Below are positions 21,218-37,795 of a stretch of DNA of 39,613 bases, in pieces. Below the pieces are notes generated by a model. The model was not told the origin of the DNA and made no database searches. It saw only the letters and a program-made list of their open reading frames with translations. The translations under genes and the position numbers were made by a program. Numbering within the stretch: position 1 is the stretch's first letter; every line of letters starts with the position of its first letter. Where the stretch lies: IMG/VR virus record IMGVR_UViG_3300027759_004016, positions 1-39,613 of that record; one strand, 5' to 3'. The DNA is from a virus.

Positions 21218-22429
21218 ATGAAATCATCCGAAACGTTAGACAACTGTAGTTTCTGCGGCAAACACAAAGATTCAGTGGCCAAGCTCATTGTGGGCAGTGA
21301 AGTTTCAATCTGCAATGAGTGTGTGGACCTGTGCCAAACTCTACTTAAAGAAGAGCTATCGGTCAAAGCTAAAGATGCAATTGATGATACCTTGGATCCC
21401 AGAGCCATCAAAGACCACTTGGATCAATATGTGATTGGGCAAGACCATGCCAAAATGGTACTGAGTGTGGCCATTGCCAATCACTACAAACGCATTGCCA
21501 ATGCAGATCCTGACACCGAGATTGAAAAAGCCAACATACTCATGTTAGGCCCAACAGGCTCGGGCAAAACATTGCTGGCACGTACTGTGGCACGTTATTT
21601 AGATGTGCCGTTTGTTATTGCAGATGCCACCAGTTTGACCGAAGCAGGATATGTGGGCGACGATGTTGAAAGTTTAATCACAAGACTGTACACAGCCGCT
21701 GGCGGCGATGTGGCCAAGACACAGCGCGGTATTGTGTTTGTGGATGAAATTGACAAAATTAGTCGCCGTGGCGAGAGTGCCAGTATCACAAGAGATGTGT
21801 CGGGAGAGGGTGTGCAACAAGCCTTGCTCAAGCTGGTAGAAGGTACCAAGTGTAGGATCACTCCACAAGGTGGACGCAAGCATCCTGCAGGCGACACAGT
21901 GGAAATTGACACAGCCAACATCTTGTTCATTGCCGGTGGCGCATTTGTTGGACTAGACAACATTGTGAAGAGTCGAGTAAAAGGTACCTCAATAGGATTT
22001 TCTGCACAGGTTGTAGCAGACAGCACTAGCGTTACATTAGACAAAACCACACCCGAAGACTTGATTAAATTTGGCATGATTCCAGAGTTTGTGGGACGTT
22101 TCCCCAGTTGGGTGGCGTTGGCAGAACTCAACAAAGAAGATTTAGTGCGCATACTGCAAGATGTTAAACACAGTTATGTCAGCCAGTACCAATGGATATT
22201 CAAACGTGATCAAGTCGAACTGGAATTCAGTGCAGACAGTTTGGATCTGATCGCAGAACGCACCATTGCCAACAAAACTGGTGCTCGTGGCCTGCACTCA
22301 GAACTAGAACGTGTGCTATTGCCACACATGTACAATTTGACACGTTATCGCAAGGGCGGAATCCAGACCTTGAATATCAACACTGACCTGGTAAATAATC
22401 CTGAATCACTTCGGGAAATAAATGAATAA
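21218..22429 (+). CDS. clpX: ClpX-type AAA+ unfoldase
   Basis: A 403-residue, full-length ClpX. The zinc-binding domain has C10, C13, C32 and C35. Walker A is GPTGSGKT (111-118), pore loop GYVG (144-147), Walker B IVFVDEID (172-178), the substrate-gripping RKH loop at 220-222 and RDVSGEGVQQALLKLVEG. The ClpP-docking loop is kept as IGF (259-261). ClpX unfolds tagged proteins and feeds them to ClpP. No ClpP is in this window, so the phage enzyme most likely docks on host ClpP or works as a free unfoldase (inference). The intact zinc domain suggests it still uses adaptors. Followed by bS21 with an 8-base overlap. Confidence 0.96.
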   Translation: MKSSETLDNCSFCGKHKDSVAKLIVGSEVSICNECVDLCQTLLKEELSVKAKDAIDDTLDPRAIKDHLDQYVIGQDHAKMVLSVAIANHYKRIANADPDTEIEKANILMLGPTGSGKTLLARTVARYLDVPFVIADATSLTEAGYVGDDVESLITRLYTAAGGDVAKTQRGIVFVDEIDKISRRGESASITRDVSGEGVQQALLKLVEGTKCRITPQGGRKHPAGDTVEIDTANILFIAGGAFVGLDNIVKSRVKGTSIGFSAQVVADSTSVTLDKTTPEDLIKFGMIPEFVGRFPSWVALAELNKEDLVRILQDVKHSYVSQYQWIFKRDQVELEFSADSLDLIAERTIANKTGARGLHSELERVLLPHMYNLTRYRKGGIQTLNINTDLVNNPESLREINE

Positions 22430-22646
22430 ACCACATGCTAGATCAGTATTAGTACAAGACAACAACATTGAAAAAGCCCTGCGCAAGTTCAAGAAAAAAG
22501 TGCAAAATTCTGGCATACTGAATGACCTCCGCGAACATGAATTTTACATCAAACCCACTACTGCTAGAAAACTCAAACGCAGTGCAGCCAAAAATCGTTG
22601 GCGCAAACAACTACAAGCCCAACAACTTCCTCCCCGAACATATTAA
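22422..22646 (+). CDS. rpsU: Ribosomal protein bS21
   Basis: A 74-residue homologue of the small-subunit protein bS21 (E. coli 71 residues). The family signatures are VQDNNIEKALRKFKKKVQ, GILNDLREHEFYIKPTTA and RKLKRSAAKNRWRKQL. bS21 sits near the anti-Shine-Dalgarno end of 16S rRNA and influences initiation. Phage-encoded bS21 is known and is thought to replace the host copy and shift translation toward viral messages. It overlaps clpX by 8 bases and ends before a new promoter. Confidence 0.94.
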   Translation: MNKPHARSVLVQDNNIEKALRKFKKKVQNSGILNDLREHEFYIKPTTARKLKRSAAKNRWRKQLQAQQLPPRTY

Positions 22647-22660
22647 TTTTTCCAAATATT

Positions 22661-22689
22661 TTGACACAGAATGAAATTTGTGTTATAAA
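22661..22689 (+). promoter_or_regulatory. Promoter of the hsp20 leader
   Basis: TTGACA at 22661-22666, 17-base spacer, TATAAA at 22684-22689. TATAAATA (22684-22691) also matches the T4-type late promoter consensus, so the site may serve host and late viral polymerase. Transcription would begin near 22696, giving a ~60-base leader. Confidence 0.78.
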
Positions 22690-22695
22690 TATACA

Positions 22696-22757
22696 TGTAG
22701 TGCCCATAGTGGGGCTACAATTCAAACCGTCATCTTGCTTAATAAAGGAGAAAACAA
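22696..22757 (+). promoter_or_regulatory. Candidate ROSE-type RNA thermometer in the hsp20 leader
   Basis: Just before the start codon, TTGCTT (22735-22740), loop AATA and AAGGAG (22745-22750) can fold over the ribosome-binding site. The pairing is U-A, U-A, C-G, a G/G mismatch, U-A, U-G. A UUGCU word facing the Shine-Dalgarno with a G/G pair is the hallmark of ROSE elements upstream of Hsp20 genes. A first hairpin with arms GTAG..CCC / GGG..CTAC lies at ~22698-22719. Confidence 0.55.
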
Positions 22758-23216
22758 ATGACAAAAACTCTAACCCTTCGCAGTTTCGATATCCCCGCAA
22801 TTCACAAATTTGGTATTGGTTTCGACAACCTGTTTGATGATCTCATGCGTGTGAATGCCCAACAAAGCAACAACAACTACCCACCTTATGACATTGTGCA
22901 AATCAATGATGATGAGTACATGATCAGTTTGGCTGTGGCTGGCTTTGGGCATGACAACCTGAGTATTACCAAGGACAAAAAATTCTTGATAATTGAAGGC
23001 AAGCACAGTCGTGAGGCTGTGGACAATGAAGACTCTACTACAAAGTACTTGCACAAAGGCATCAGCGAACGAAGTTTCCGCAGGGAATTTCAATTGGCTG
23101 ACCATGTGGAAATCAGCAATGCACATCTTGAACTTGGTATTCTTAACGTTCACCTAAAACGTGAAGTACCCGAAGAAGCCAAACCAAAGACCATTGCTAT
23201 TACCTACAAAGAGTAA
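22758..23216 (+). CDS. Hsp20-family small heat-shock protein (IbpA-like)
   Basis: A 152-residue small heat-shock protein. The IbpA-type start has FDIPAIHKFGIGFDNLFDDL. The alpha-crystallin domain runs ~45-140 with YPPYDIVQINDDEYMISLAVAGF, ISERSFRREFQLADHVE and LELGILNVHLKREVPEE (the G-x-L motif is GIL). It lacks an obvious IEI-like tail beyond KTIAITYKE. It holds unfolding proteins in a soluble state, possibly nascent virion proteins. It has its own promoter and a candidate thermosensor leader. Downstream is a strong hairpin and clpS. Confidence 0.95.
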   Translation: MTKTLTLRSFDIPAIHKFGIGFDNLFDDLMRVNAQQSNNNYPPYDIVQINDDEYMISLAVAGFGHDNLSITKDKKFLIIEGKHSREAVDNEDSTTKYLHKGISERSFRREFQLADHVEISNAHLELGILNVHLKREVPEEAKPKTIAITYKE

Positions 23217-23229
23217 TATAATGTAAATA

Positions 23230-23255
23230 CAGTGACAGCAATCCTGCTGTCACTG
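23230..23255 (+). terminator. Strong intergenic hairpin between hsp20 and clpS
   Basis: CAGTGACAGCA (23230-23240), loop ATCC and TGCTGTCACTG (23245-23255): 11 perfect pairs. There is no T-run afterwards, so it may stabilise or process the transcript, or attenuate clpS, rather than act as a classic terminator. Confidence 0.65.
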
Positions 23256-23276
23256 ATTGAGTAGCAAGGAATAGAA

Positions 23277-23588
23277 ATGTCACAAAGCGATACCCGCACA
23301 AGAATCAAGCCATCAGAGGCTGTAAAAGAGCCTCCCATGTTTAAAGTTATCTACTTGAATGATAATCAAACCACAATGGATTTTGTTGTAGACAGTCTGA
23401 TTGAATACTTTGATTATACTGCTGAAACTGCTGAACAAATCACTGTAGATATTCATCAAGCCGGGCAAGCTACTGTGGCAGTGTTGCCTTATGAAATTGC
23501 CGAACAAAAAGGCATCGAAGTCACACTCAGCGCACGTTCACAGAGTTACCCACTGCAAATCAAACTGGAACCCGAGACAGTAAATTAA
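23277..23588 (+). CDS. clpS: ClpS-type N-degron adaptor
   Basis: A 103-residue ClpS homologue, with AAGGAATAG before the ATG. The core FKVIYLNDNQTTMDFVVDSLIEYF matches the ClpS start, and VDIHQAGQATVAVLPYEIAEQK the central helix. Pocket residues that read N-terminal degron residues are mostly kept: N28, D29, M34 and H60 (E. coli N34, D35, M40, H66); D36 is replaced by N30. In bacteria ClpS hands substrates to ClpA, which is not in this window, so it must act with host ClpA or have another partner. The N-terminal tail is ~20 residues. Confidence 0.93.
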   Translation: MSQSDTRTRIKPSEAVKEPPMFKVIYLNDNQTTMDFVVDSLIEYFDYTAETAEQITVDIHQAGQATVAVLPYEIAEQKGIEVTLSARSQSYPLQIKLEPETVN

Positions 23589-28974: not shown

Positions 28975-30111
28975 TTAGAAGCGGTATTGCACACCAACTG
29001 CCACAGCCTGTTGTTTGTACTTGCTGTCAGCATAGGTTGATCCGTCACCGTTGGGAACCCAACGATCATAGATTGTGAATGGGCTCACTGCACCACTTGC
29101 ACGGTTGGCCACAACATAGTCAACAAACACTTGTGTGCGCTTGCTGAAGTCATAAGTCGCACCCACAGCAGTCATTTTCACATTGTCTTTGCCAGCAGTG
29201 ATTTTGTCTTGCACATTGTAGTAGCCAGCATTTACACCAACGTTGGCATTGACCTTGTACTTGGCGCCCATAAACCAGGTGTTGGCATCTGTCTTGCCGT
29301 CTACCTTGCTAGAACTTGAGTAGTAGGTGGTCTGTGCTGTGGGGTTACGAGTTTGTGCATAACCAGCATTCACTGTCAATGCAGGGCTCACTGCGTATTT
29401 TGCAGCCACCAAGTCAATGGTTTCGCTGACCACAGCAGTGCTCAAACGAACTTCTGCACGAGAATATGCAACAGCAAGGTCACCAACAGTGTAAGTACCG
29501 CCTAGGTTGTAGCTCTTTTTGTAGTCGTTGTTGTCCAACTGGTTGCCAAAACTATAAGCACCGTCCAACACCAAACCACCAAAACTGGGGGATGTGTAAC
29601 GAACCATGTTGTCAAAGCGGCTAACACCTGAACCTGAGTAGAAACCTGCGTAACGAGCGATTGGCTTCAGGCCACCAAAGTTCCAGTTACTACGTGAGTC
29701 AAATTCATCAGCCACTGAGTACAGGTGTGTTTTGCCACGGCCTAGTTTGACTTCACCAAAACCACCTGACAAGGCCACATTGGCTTCACGGTCAAACAAG
29801 GTGCTTGAACCTGAACCAGTGCCAGCAGAGTCTTTACCAGCACCGCCAGTGCGCAAGCTCATGTTGCCTTCCAGGGTTAATGTGGCTTTCAAGCCATCGC
29901 CCAGGTCTTCTGAACTCTTGATACCAAAACGGTTGCTGTTGTGCAACTGTTCGCCCAGGCCTTGGAAGTTGCTGTTGCTGCTGGAAAACCCAGAACCACT
30001 AACAACACCAGCACCTGCCACACCGTAAAGTTGTGTGCTTTGTGCCTGTGCTGTGCCAGCAGTGATGCCAGCAGCCAACAACGTGGCTAGAACAATATTT
30101 GTAAATTTCAT
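28975..30111 (-). CDS. Outer-membrane porin, betaproteobacterial type
   Basis: A 378-residue trimeric-type porin. It has the signal peptide MKFTNIVLATLLAAGITAGTAQA then QSTQLYGVAGAG. Successive amphipathic strands include SNRFGIKSSEDLGDGLKATLTLEG, FDREANVALSGGFGEVKLGR, DNMVRYTSPSFGG, and it ends QAVAVGVQYRF with C-terminal Phe for BAM-dependent insertion. The pattern NRFGIKSSEDLGDGLKA...FGEVKLGR is that of Burkholderiales Porin_4 proteins. ATG 30111 with GGAGATTCT is chosen over the ATG 18 bases upstream. It has its own promoter and terminator. A porin is a rare phage cargo and points to the host group. It may raise small-anion (for instance phosphate) uptake, or change the receptor; both are inference. 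Confidence 0.93.
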   Translation of the reverse strand: MKFTNIVLATLLAAGITAGTAQAQSTQLYGVAGAGVVSGSGFSSSNSNFQGLGEQLHNSNRFGIKSSEDLGDGLKATLTLEGNMSLRTGGAGKDSAGTGSGSSTLFDREANVALSGGFGEVKLGRGKTHLYSVADEFDSRSNWNFGGLKPIARYAGFYSGSGVSRFDNMVRYTSPSFGGLVLDGAYSFGNQLDNNDYKKSYNLGGTYTVGDLAVAYSRAEVRLSTAVVSETIDLVAAKYAVSPALTVNAGYAQTRNPTAQTTYYSSSSKVDGKTDANTWFMGAKYKVNANVGVNAGYYNVQDKITAGKDNVKMTAVGATYDFSKRTQVFVDYVVANRASGAVSPFTIYDRWVPNGDGSTYADSKYKQQAVAVGVQYRF

Positions 30112-30139
30112 AGAATCTCCTTTTTTCATTTACTTTCCT

Positions 30140-30167
30140 AGTATAACATATTATGTAGTTTTGTCAA
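30140..30167 (-). promoter_or_regulatory. Porin promoter
   Basis: Minus strand: TTGACA (30162-30167), 16-base spacer, TATACT (30140-30145). It lies between the pstS stop and the porin start, so the porin can be expressed independently of the Pho-box unit. Confidence 0.82.
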
Positions 30168-30178
30168 GCCCACATAAT

Positions 30179-31195
30179 TTATTTCTTGATTTGTGTCCAA
30201 ACATCACTGCGGATGCGATCTGTCACTGCTTTTGGTAGCGGGACATAATCAAGATCGGCAGCCAATTTGCCACCATTCGCAAATGCCCAATCAAAGAATT
30301 TTACAACTTCTTGACTGGTTTTGGAATTTTTGGGTTCACGGTACATGAGAATAAAAGTTGCACCTGTGATGGGCCAGGCTTGATCTCCCTTTTGATTCAC
30401 AAGGCTGATGCCCATGCCTGGAGTTGAAAACCAATCTGCTCCTGAGGCAGCAGCCGCAAATGTCAAATCGTCTGGCTCTACGTATTTACCATTACGATTT
30501 TGCAGTTTGACATAAGTCATCTTGTTTTTCTTGGCGTAGGCATACTCTACGTAACCAATTGAGTTCTTGACCCGTGCCACATTGGCTGCAACACCTTCGT
30601 TGCCTTTACCGCCTACACTGCTGGCAGCAGGCCACTTAACAGCCGCACCTTTGCCCACTTGCTCTTTCCAAACTGTACTGACTTCGCTCAAGTAGTCGGT
30701 GAATATGAATGTTGTGCCCGAACCGTCTGCACGATGCACAATGGTAATGGGCTCATCGGGCAGTTTAATTTTTGGATTCAATTCCTGAATGCGCTTGTCA
30801 TTCCACACAACAATATGTCCAACAAAGATTTTGGCCAACACTTCACCGGTCAACTGTAGTTCGCCTGGCTTGACGCCTTCCACGTTGATAATTGGTACAA
30901 CACCACCCAACACTGTGGGGAACTGTACTAGGCCTGCGGCTGTTAATTCATCACCTTTCAGAGGTGCATCTGTGGCACCAAAATCCACTGTGGCTGCCTT
31001 GATCTGTTTGATGCCGCCTGAACTGCCAATGCTTTGATAGTTCAATTGAACGTCAGTTTTATCTTTGTATGCTTCTGACCACTTGCTATAAATGGGAAAG
31101 GGGAAGGTTGCGCCTGCCCCTGTGATTGTTTCTGCGTTTGCTTGTGGGCTCATCAAATACAATGATGCCGCTATAACTGCCAAGATTTTTTTCAT
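30179..31195 (-). CDS. pstS: Phosphate ABC transporter periplasmic binding protein PstS
   Basis: A 338-residue PstS. ATG 31195 with AAAGGAACAAACAC is preferred over the longer frame. It has the signal peptide MKKILAVIAASLYLMSPQANA then ETITGAGATFPFPIYSKW. Phosphate-binding stretches are TGAGATFPFP, SIGSSGGIKQI, DFGATDAPLKG and HRADGSGTTFIFTDYL. It catches phosphate in the periplasm and passes it to host PstCAB, none of which are in this window. PstS is a known cyanophage auxiliary gene under Pho control. The gene is preceded by a Pho-box-like element at 31248. It is followed by the porin gene. Confidence 0.96.
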   Translation of the reverse strand: MKKILAVIAASLYLMSPQANAETITGAGATFPFPIYSKWSEAYKDKTDVQLNYQSIGSSGGIKQIKAATVDFGATDAPLKGDELTAAGLVQFPTVLGGVVPIINVEGVKPGELQLTGEVLAKIFVGHIVVWNDKRIQELNPKIKLPDEPITIVHRADGSGTTFIFTDYLSEVSTVWKEQVGKGAAVKWPAASSVGGKGNEGVAANVARVKNSIGYVEYAYAKKNKMTYVKLQNRNGKYVEPDDLTFAAAASGADWFSTPGMGISLVNQKGDQAWPITGATFILMYREPKNSKTSQEVVKFFDWAFANGGKLAADLDYVPLPKAVTDRIRSDVWTQIKK

Positions 31196-31247
31196 GTGTT
31201 TGTTCCTTTGTGAATGTGCGATGCACAAATTATTTAAACACAAAGAT

Positions 31248-35668: not shown

Positions 35669-35697
35669 TTGACCATTATTAAAAAATAGTGTATACT
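35669..35697 (+). promoter_or_regulatory. Promoter of uvdE
   Basis: TTGACC at 35669-35674, 17-base spacer, TATACT at 35692-35697. The -10 box ends 6 bases before ATG 35704, so transcription should start at or beside the start codon (leaderless message). Confidence 0.82.
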
Positions 35698-35703
35698 ACA
35701 CAC

Positions 35704-36732
35704 ATGAACACACCTAGAATTGGCTTTTGTTGCAAGTGGCTCAATGACCCCTCAGAATGTGGCGGCATGAAGGTCAATGCAAAGGACCGTGACTTAAACG
35801 GCAGATCGACTACCATGCGATGGCTGCGTGAACACGCGGACGAGGCCGAGCAACGCCAGTGGGACATCATGAACCACAATGCTGCCGCGGCTGTGCGACT
35901 GATCGAGCGTGTGGGCACACTGCCTCCTGAACGCAGAATGGTACGCCTGGGCAGTGAAATGCTACAAGGCTACACTGAAAAAGACTGGATTGCGTGGTGG
36001 CAACGCACAGAGATACAAGAACACTGTGCCAAGATCTTTGCTCCTGTTGGCGAAGCTGCTCGCAGATTGGGTGTGCGTATATCATTCCACCCCGGACAGT
36101 TTTGTGTACTGGCTTCAGAGTCGGACGAGATTGTTCAACGCAGTATACTAGAATTTGAGTATCATGTGGACATGGCTCGTTGGATGGGCTTTGGTGCCGG
36201 CTGGCATGATCATGGGTTTAAAATTAATGTGCATTTGTCAGGCAAAGGCGGGCCTGACAAATTCCTACGCACCTTGGGTCAACTTACCCCAGAAGCAAGG
36301 AATCTAATCGCTATTGAAAATGATGAGATGTCAAATGGTTTGGACGTTACTCTTACTGTGGCTGATAGTGTGGCTCTTACTTTGGATATTCATCACCACT
36401 GGATCAACACCGGTGAATATATCGAGCCCTTGGATCCACGTGCTCAACGGGTTGTTGAGTCTTGGCGTGGTACTCGCCCTGTTTGTCACTACAGTGTTAG
36501 CCGTGAAGATGTTGTTGTGGGACACAATACCTTTGTTAGACCAGACCTATCAGCCCTCCTCAGTCAAGGCCACAAAAAGCAAAAACTGCGAGCACATTCG
36601 GACTTCATGTGGAACACTGCTGTAAATAAATGGGCACTGACATTTGCGGATCAGTGGGACATACAGGTCGAAGCCAAAGGCAAGAACTTGGCCAGTGAAA
36701 TGCTGTACAACCAATGGCGGGCCAATGCCTAA
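35704..36732 (+). CDS. uvsE: UV damage endonuclease (UVDE/UvsE family)
   Basis: A 342-residue TIM-barrel endonuclease that nicks DNA 5' of UV photoproducts. The metal-site motifs are RIGFCCKWL, SFHPGQFCVLASE, KINVHLSGKGGPDK, LIAIENDEM, LTLDIHHHWI, VCHYSVSRED and KLRAHSDFMW. Length fits the family (~300-420). ATG 35704 is chosen since the upstream in-frame GTG 35689 overlaps the -10 box. No Shine-Dalgarno is present, fitting a leaderless message. Its presence suits a virus living in sunlit water (inference). Confidence 0.94.
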   Translation: MNTPRIGFCCKWLNDPSECGGMKVNAKDRDLNGRSTTMRWLREHADEAEQRQWDIMNHNAAAAVRLIERVGTLPPERRMVRLGSEMLQGYTEKDWIAWWQRTEIQEHCAKIFAPVGEAARRLGVRISFHPGQFCVLASESDEIVQRSILEFEYHVDMARWMGFGAGWHDHGFKINVHLSGKGGPDKFLRTLGQLTPEARNLIAIENDEMSNGLDVTLTVADSVALTLDIHHHWINTGEYIEPLDPRAQRVVESWRGTRPVCHYSVSREDVVVGHNTFVRPDLSALLSQGHKKQKLRAHSDFMWNTAVNKWALTFADQWDIQVEAKGKNLASEMLYNQWRANA

Positions 36733-37437: not shown

Positions 37438-37470
37438 TATGTTGCGCCGCAACATAAATAGTGCTACAAT
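37438..37470 (+). promoter_or_regulatory. Promoter overlapped by a 19-bp palindromic operator candidate
   Basis: TTGCGC (37442-37447), 17-base spacer, TACAAT (37465-37470). The -35 box lies in the palindrome TATGTTGCGCCGCAACATA (37438-37456; perfect 9-base arms, 1-base centre). The arrangement is typical of a repressor site. It drives the phasin-like gene after a ~65-base leader. Confidence 0.68.
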
Positions 37471-37537
37471 AGAAACACAAGACGCTGAATGGTTCGGGTC
37501 TTGTTTTCTAGAACTTGCTTAATTTAAGGAGAAAAAC

Positions 37538-37795
37538 ATGTTCAATTCTGTAATCGAAGCCGTGCAAACTGCACAAAAAACTTTTGTCAACACTGTGGTC
37601 ACTAACGAAGAAATCGCCAAGCCCATGGTACAAATGATCGACAGCCAGTGCGATGCTGCCAAGTTGACTGCCAAGGCCGTGATGGATATCACCACTTCAA
37701 TGGCTGCAATGACCACTGAAAAAGTGCAAGAAGCAATGAAGTTTGACTTTACCAAGTACACCGAAGCATTCAAGCCAGCCACTGCTAAAAAGTAA
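37538..37795 (+). CDS. Phasin-like small amphipathic protein
   Basis: An 85-residue all-helical protein behind AAGGAGAAAAAC. The pattern FNSVIEAVQTAQKTFVNTVV and IDSQCDAAKLTAKAVMDITT resembles phasin-type proteins that coat polyhydroxyalkanoate granules; related short ORFs occur in T4-like aquatic phages (recall). Betaproteobacterial hosts often store PHB, so granule binding is possible, but the protein is shorter than host phasins (~180) and may do something else, such as membrane binding. Flanked by its own promoter and terminator, so it is likely strongly expressed. Confidence 0.72.
   Translation: MFNSVIEAVQTAQKTFVNTVVTNEEIAKPMVQMIDSQCDAAKLTAKAVMDITTSMAAMTTEKVQEAMKFDFTKYTEAFKPATAKK

Follow-up and report, generated by a model that had tools for sequence, protein, structure and literature searches.

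A probable ROSE-like RNA thermometer upstream of an IbpA-type hsp20 gene in a phage

Here we show that the hsp20 gene of a 39.6-kb virus record is preceded by a short two-hairpin leader of ROSE-type anatomy, that this leader is conserved in several groups of phages with covariation in its 5' hairpin, and that it is restricted to a few genes. The leader is probably a short ROSE-like RNA thermometer acting on a phage gene for an IbpA-type small heat shock protein. Masking of the Shine-Dalgarno sequence (SD) in vivo, temperature as the signal, and transcription late in infection are what its structure and upstream sequence lead us to infer. If this is true, infecting phages would adjust their chaperone production to temperature or to folding stress, with a bearing on phage performance in warming waters.

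Introduction

RNA thermometers are known from bacteria. In Pseudomonas, two-hairpin ROSE leaders of ibpA keep the SD hidden at 25 C and expose it at 42 C, with hairpin I still folded, and the role of the ROSE 5' hairpins has been described as not fully understood (PMC3669281). Only two phage cases are named in a 2023 paper, which lists lambda cIII as one earlier phage thermometer and adds SPbeta blyA, a fourU element (PMC10586365). Both are phage mRNAs with temperature-dependent leaders, like that proposed here, but they belong to other genes, cIII works through alternative structures, and neither is a ROSE element (PMC10586365); we found no report of a ROSE element in a phage, in agreement with an earlier note on the present DNA, which knew of no thermosensor of the bacterial hsp20 type in a phage. 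A literature search for ROSE elements or RNA thermometers in cyanophages, and for phage phasins, returned nothing relevant, and dedicated papers on cyanophage small heat shock proteins leave a thermosensing leader unmentioned.

Methods

Leaders were collected by scans with the Hsp20 of the window (the whole stretch of DNA analysed, 39,613 nucleotides) and three relatives, supplemented with cultured phages. Those with sufficient upstream sequence gave 132 distinct hsp20 leaders, which are related to each other, so that counts over them are not independent events; controls were 232 SD-bearing ORFs from the same loci, chosen mechanically. Hairpin I was counted by anchoring on the words YGCY and GGR, not on pairing, which gave 41 distinct arm pairs. 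Covariance model R1 was trained on 22 leaders with the window excluded, and was built from alignment A4 only because in the MAFFT alignments A1-A3 the window's hairpin I stem is one column out of place; all E-values given for R1 are rough by the tool's own account. Mean unpaired probability of the SD is uninformative per leader and significant for the group only, and the cost of opening the ribosome binding site (RBS) was used instead. Residue numbering of E. coli IbpA was checked on NC_000913.

Results and Discussion

The hsp20 gene and its surroundings

The window carries genes for ribonucleotide reductase, DNA ligase, a ClpX-like protein, ribosomal protein S21, Hsp20 and ClpS, and the nearest relatives of its Hsp20 lie on contigs of up to 364 kb, which together indicate a fragment of a large aquatic phage. 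A DNA search of the phage collection with the window region gave no match. Less usual phage cargo is found at 28975-31243 (minus strand) and 35689-36732 (plus strand), namely a porin (Porin_4), a solute-binding-type protein (PBP_like_2) and UvdE. The hsp20 gene and the features of its leader are as follows.

22684-22691, plus strand: TATAAATA, a T4-late-type promoter word overlapping a sigma70-like -10 (recognized in the sequence)
22696-22719, plus strand: hairpin I, stem UGUAG/CUACA, U22701.G, bulged G22702, CCC/GGG (folding; covariation)
22729-22762, plus strand: predicted outer helix, GUCAU (22729-22733) with AUGAC (22758-22762) (folding; GTCA in 52/52 freshwater leaders)
22734-22750, plus strand: hairpin II core, anti-SD strand CUUGCUU with bulged G22737 against SD AAGGAG, loop AAUA (R1 match at 22697-22760; RNAalifold)
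22758-23216, plus strand: hsp20, IbpA-type small heat shock protein of 152 aa (Pfam HSP20, phrog_432, NCBIfam IbpA)

The ORF whose ATG lies directly downstream of the element is IbpA-like, as previously claimed: it matches Pfam HSP20 with an E-value of 2.4e-16, and its top NCBIfam model is IbpA (E 3e-37), yet under the cut-off of that model. The phage Hsp20s tested group with proteobacterial IbpA proteins, away from more distant bacterial small heat shock proteins. The gene is flanked by those for S21 and ClpS. The adjoining genes for the ClpX-like protein, S21, Hsp20 and ClpS (21218-23588) form a possible protein quality-control cluster, and an inverted repeat of 11 pairs with a T-rich tail on the minus strand lies between hsp20 and clpS (23230-23255).

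Anatomy of the hsp20 leader

The leader (22696-22762) reads TGTAGTGCCCATAGTGGGGCTACA-ATTCAAACC-GTCATCTTGCTTAATAAAGGAGAAAACAA-ATGAC and has the short-ROSE anatomy of two hairpins, a 5' hairpin followed by one that covers the SD. TTGCTT (22735-22740), the loop AATA (22741-22744) and AAGGAG (22745-22750) precede the ATG at 22758 as described before, and the word UUGCU (22735-22739) faces the SD in a predicted pairing with which the RNAalifold consensus agrees. The G/G mismatch that the earlier note saw in this hairpin had to be given up, as its register fails in relatives that carry CUCGCUU. It was replaced by a register with a bulged G22737 (C22734-G22750, U22735-A22749, U22736.G22748, C22738-G22747, U22739-A22746, U22740-A22745), which is retained in nearly all relatives and predicted by RNAalifold from 29 leaders. 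A FourU thermometer, defined by four U opposite the SD, was also considered and rejected, the strand here being CUUGCUU.

Two parts of the leader were absent from the earlier description: hairpin I, of the general form YGCC-loop-GGG with one unpaired G, and the GUCAU/AUGAC pairing. Hairpin I is the half of the leader with the stronger covariation. The outer helix, according to folding, would bury the start codon as well, and the GTCA of the freshwater leaders could pair with the start codon region in the same way; covariation of this helix is unusable as a test because AUGAC is constrained by coding.

Upstream of the leader, TTGACA (22661-22666) and TATAAA (22684-22689) are separated by a 17 nt spacer, the latter being overlapped by TATAAATA (22684-22691). 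The gene had been said to possess its own promoter, and these sigma70-like words are indeed present, but what relatives keep is the T4-late-type NTAAATA, not the -35. NTAAATA occurs 7-11 nt upstream of the hairpin I word YGCC in 49/50 leaders of freshwater phages, 37/60 of cyanophages and 9/16 of the others, against 2/232 in the comparable stretch of other genes, and this word suggests a late promoter and a transcription start. Such a promoter would place hairpin I at the extreme 5' end of the mRNA.

Conservation and covariation among phage leaders

The leaders come from freshwater phages, cyanophages, pelagiphages, the methylophage Melnitz and the rhizobial jumbo phage Phosso (a Sinorhizobium phage), and share the order hairpin I, A-rich linker, U(U/C)GCU, AGGAG and ATG, to which NTAAATA is added in many. 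T[TC]GCT at -35 to -8 is found in 127/132 distinct hsp20 leaders and in 7/232 other SD-bearing ORFs. Among the exceptions, S-TIM5 has ACGCU, compensated by a change in the SD strand. A pelagiphage clade (L268, L270, L273, L275) has UGUCU in place of U(U/C)GCU, retains hairpin I and shows a possible UUAAC/GUUAA outer helix; one freshwater leader (L016) has AAGAAG where others have AAGGAG.

Hairpin I with at least three inner pairs is present in 126/132 leaders and in 2/232 controls, the two control exceptions being exactly the 85-aa gene and the dnaK discussed below. Its inner three pairs form in 41/41 distinct arm pairs, and 3-4 Watson-Crick types occur at each; over five pairs, occupancy is 88% compared with 49% for reshuffled arms (maximum of 5000 shuffles, 62%). 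With this structure, 95% of the cells of alignment A4 are paired, and 41-58% when it is slid. A lack of covariation among homologous phage leaders had been named beforehand as one outcome that would refute the thermometer claim; when run, this test did not refute it, covariation being strong in hairpin I. What does not vary in this hairpin is the Y.G pair, the unpaired G and CC/GG. As the stem that holds them varies so readily, these constant bases may be recognized by a partner, possibly Hsp20. Hairpin II offers little covariation, its core, CUY-G-CUU/AAG-GAG, being nearly invariant: among 49 distinct forms the only changes on both sides are CAC/GUG (S-TIM5) and CUA/UAG (Phosso), and one pair alternates between C-G and U.G among relatives.

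Covariance model and Rfam searches

R1 matches the hsp20 leader of the window at 22697-22760 with 43.7 bits (E 1.6e-10) and has only one further convincing match in the 39.6 kb (37478-37540). Of 30 whole phage records, 30 match at hsp20 with E<=0.1; the weaker of these matches (E 0.009-0.03) are in HTVC008M, HTVC115P, C48C1 and one freshwater contig, and many freshwater records hold a second match. Three other matches (L393, L396, L397; E 0.009-0.08) were dropped as they have no ORF downstream. R1 gave no matches in three bacterial genomes.

The Rfam search for ROSE families that the earlier note had proposed gave a divided answer: the hsp20 leader of the window has no ROSE match, and sister leaders as well as the second element match RF02523 below threshold. 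At gathering score the whole window gave no match, and with RF00435, RF01832 and RF02523 the hsp20 leader remained without a ROSE match even at E<=10. The only Rfam matches there at E<=10 were freshwater-2 (RF02980) and one chance match on the opposite strand; freshwater-2 was rejected, with 25.2 bits against a gathering score of 49.9 and a score that comes mainly from the shared RBS stretch. RF02523 (ROSE_3) matches the leader of Melnitz with 34.1 bits (E 8e-4) and a freshwater leader with 31.9 bits (E 0.006). Phage elements that match ROSE_3 do so at 17-42 bits, below its gathering score of 43, a score that the E. coli genome does not reach either; under strict filters ROSE_3 has 1 match in 229 Gammaproteobacteria. 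As no Rfam ROSE gathering score is reached, we file the element as a ROSE-like viral variant.

Folding energy and predicted temperature response

By folding energy alone the hsp20 leader is unremarkable (z -1.2 to -1.8), and the evidence for the element is therefore comparative. The nearest-neighbour model gives the hairpin II core of the window a probability of about 0.25-0.4, and nearest-neighbour folding from 10 to 55 C showed no sharp melting of this hairpin. The predicted cost of opening the RBS of the window leader is 8.3 kcal/mol at 20 C and 4.2 kcal/mol at 42 C, and lies at the 74-82nd percentile of control genes. Opening costs are higher for hsp20 leaders than for other genes of the same loci; they about halve between 20 and 42 C, and drop with warming in controls too. 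Non-canonical pairs take part in ROSE helices (PMC3669281), which limits what the energy model can tell. The folding energies lend weak backing to hairpin II, and a temperature response of the leader is what we would expect from its predicted structure.

A second element upstream of a phasin-like gene, and a dnaK copy

The further R1 match in the window belongs to a second gene, with the following features.

37443-37454, plus strand: TGCGCCGCAACA, a PhaR-like operator, 1 mismatch to TGCRNYGCASMA (PMC6201568)
37477-37504, plus strand: hairpin I, ACAAGA/UCUUGU, C37483.G, bulged G37484 (R1; RF02523)
37514-37531, plus strand: hairpin II, CUUGCUU against SD AAGGAG (37526-37531) (R1; RF02523)
37538-37795, plus strand: 85-aa helical protein, probably phasin-like (leaders of relatives; weak Pfam Phasin_2)

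Here too UUGCU (37515-37519) faces AAGGAG. R1 matches at 37478-37540 with 27.8 bits (E 5.4e-6), and RF02523 at 37476-37543 with E 1.3e-6 and 37.9 bits, short of its gathering score of 43. The second R1 matches of related freshwater phages precede genes of the same family, of 85-93 aa, which recurs roughly 9-27 kb from hsp20. Most genes of this family were found via the leader, and a fair count has to come from protein search only: 5/7 relatives of the 85-aa protein found by sequence alone have a ROSE-like leader. The other two (L358, L361) lie directly downstream of another gene and have none, which indicates that the element is not obligatory.

The protein is probably phasin-like, judging from sequence features. 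Phasin_2 is the Pfam family most often matched, by 3/16 members with a best E-value of 0.0029, below cut-off. Structure prediction returned a low-confidence long helix for which the PDB fold search gave no match, and the profile of the protein had no matches in 369 Gammaproteobacteria. The consensus of the PhaR operator, TGCRNYGCASMA, is reported in phasin gene promoters (PMC6201568). In the window the PhaR-like site sits between a -35-like TTGCGC (37442) and TACAAT (37465-37470), and the consensus is found near 14/16 leader-bearing genes at <=2 mismatches and 12/16 at <=1, whereas the entire 39.6-kb window, counted over its two strands, has 16 sites at <=1 mismatch. One exact copy of the consensus, TGCGATGCACAA, lies at 31217-31228, close to where the minus-strand PBP-like ORF starts.

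A third element, in the L019 contig (988-1045), precedes a full-length dnaK that is itself directly upstream of hsp20. The dnaK copy (L385 / L401, G016:C1:23604-25458) is on a 103-kb phage contig, and dnaK was found in 1/21 phage records. In phages, ROSE-type control would thus extend beyond genes for small heat shock proteins.

Proposed mechanism and alternative explanations

In the cold, CUUGCUU would pair with AAGGAG around the bulged G and exclude the ribosome, and in the freshwater group GUCAU would additionally pair with the start codon region. Upon warming, hairpin II would open while hairpin I remained folded, and Hsp20 would be made. By analogy, the phage leader may act like that of Pseudomonas ibpA, with an SD that is masked and then opened. 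The late-type promoter leads us to propose that the hsp20 message appears at a late stage of infection and is translated when needed, and the phasin-like gene of the window would be under the same kind of switch. The claim that the element is ROSE-like is borne out by the word facing the SD, the stable 5' hairpin, the IbpA-type gene, and the persistence of both hairpins across unrelated phage groups. Given its occurrence in very different aquatic phages and on a second gene, it appears that phages control chaperone genes of their own by thermosensors of the bacterial kind. Abrupt heat shock is seldom met by aquatic hosts, which we count against a thermometer.

Quite possibly, though we would not bet on it, the leader is mainly a protein switch, in which phage Hsp20 would bind the leader, perhaps at hairpin I with its bulged G, and so repress hsp20 translation, with temperature secondary; by analogy with E. 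coli IbpA, aggregated or unassembled proteins would titrate Hsp20 away. E. coli IbpA represses ibpA via its 5' UTR, which requires R93, an aromatic side chain at position 34 and positively charged residues at both 97 and 98; K98A abolished repression (PMC10474464). In distinct phage Hsp20s, R93 is present in 138/139, Y or F at 34 in 139/139 and R or K at 97 in 139/139, but position 98 is basic in 0/139. Self-repression would also fit a hairpin I whose YGCC/GGG and unpaired G are kept while the stem changes freely, yet the second gene and dnaK would require repression in trans. Aggregate sensing is compatible with thermosensing, of which it is a serious partner or rival, and the confidence that we place in the two overlaps; aggregate sensing would make sense for a phage that, late in infection, produces large quantities of virion protein. 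Since hairpin I keeps its constant sequence while its stem changes, the role of the 5' hairpins is directly testable in these leaders.

The remaining alternatives fare less well against the comparative data. Hairpin I would stand at the putative transcription start and might merely shield the 5' end of a late mRNA, followed by a conserved strong RBS with no regulated masking; AAAGGAGAAAACAAATG alone accounts for most of the weak freshwater-2 match. We regard this as unlikely, as it leaves unexplained the UUGCU/UCGCU near the SD, kept in nearly all groups despite a variable linker, the double changes in hairpin II and the matches to Rfam ROSE_3. The near-invariance of the hairpin II core across phages would suit an anti-SD strand bound by a translational repressor or small RNA, from phage or host, and not a self-contained thermometer, but the same word stands in the same place in the ROSE leaders that bacteria have on this gene family, across different hosts, and no candidate repressor was found, which makes this improbable. 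Freshwater leaders are often near-identical, as they would be had the leader been copied along with the gene by shared ancestry without selection; this we hardly credit, as promoters and linkers are unalignable between groups, yet both hairpins persist with compensating stem changes, and the element is present on two unrelated genes too.

The thermometer and Hsp20 feedback may also be combined. Tentatively, and with more doubt than belief, we suggest a small phage ROSE regulon (hsp20, the PhaR-controlled phasin-like gene and, once, dnaK) controlled both by temperature and by Hsp20 at hairpin I and released upon aggregates or unassembled virion proteins, which would make it a sensor of folding stress during infection.

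Relation to known leaders

To our knowledge, the cyanobacterial hsp17 thermometer is not of the ROSE class. It resembles the predicted freshwater leader in that start codon and RBS lie in two stems with an internal loop between them, and differs in being a single hairpin on a cyanobacterial gene (PMC4477652). The closest likeness is to Pseudomonas ibpA, with about 60 nt, two hairpins, a stable hairpin I, U(U/C)GCU on the SD and an IbpA-type gene (PMC3669281). Unlike it, the phage leaders have the late-type NTAAATA word, where sigma32 control is reported for Pseudomonas (PMC3669281), their hairpin II is AU-rich and weaker, the start codon of the freshwater leaders can be buried, and the element is additionally found on the phasin-like gene and a dnaK. 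The RF02523 consensus shares two hairpins, a hairpin I of AUGCC...GGGU with an unpaired G, and a CUYGCU/AGGAG hairpin II. In E. coli ibpA, our reading gives a similar hairpin II core with the bulged G (CUC-G-CUG/CAG-GAG) and a hairpin I of CGCC-UGAU-GGG, but the leader is longer with more hairpins and R1 does not report it; the E. coli ibpB leader is matched by R1 with 19.5 bits.
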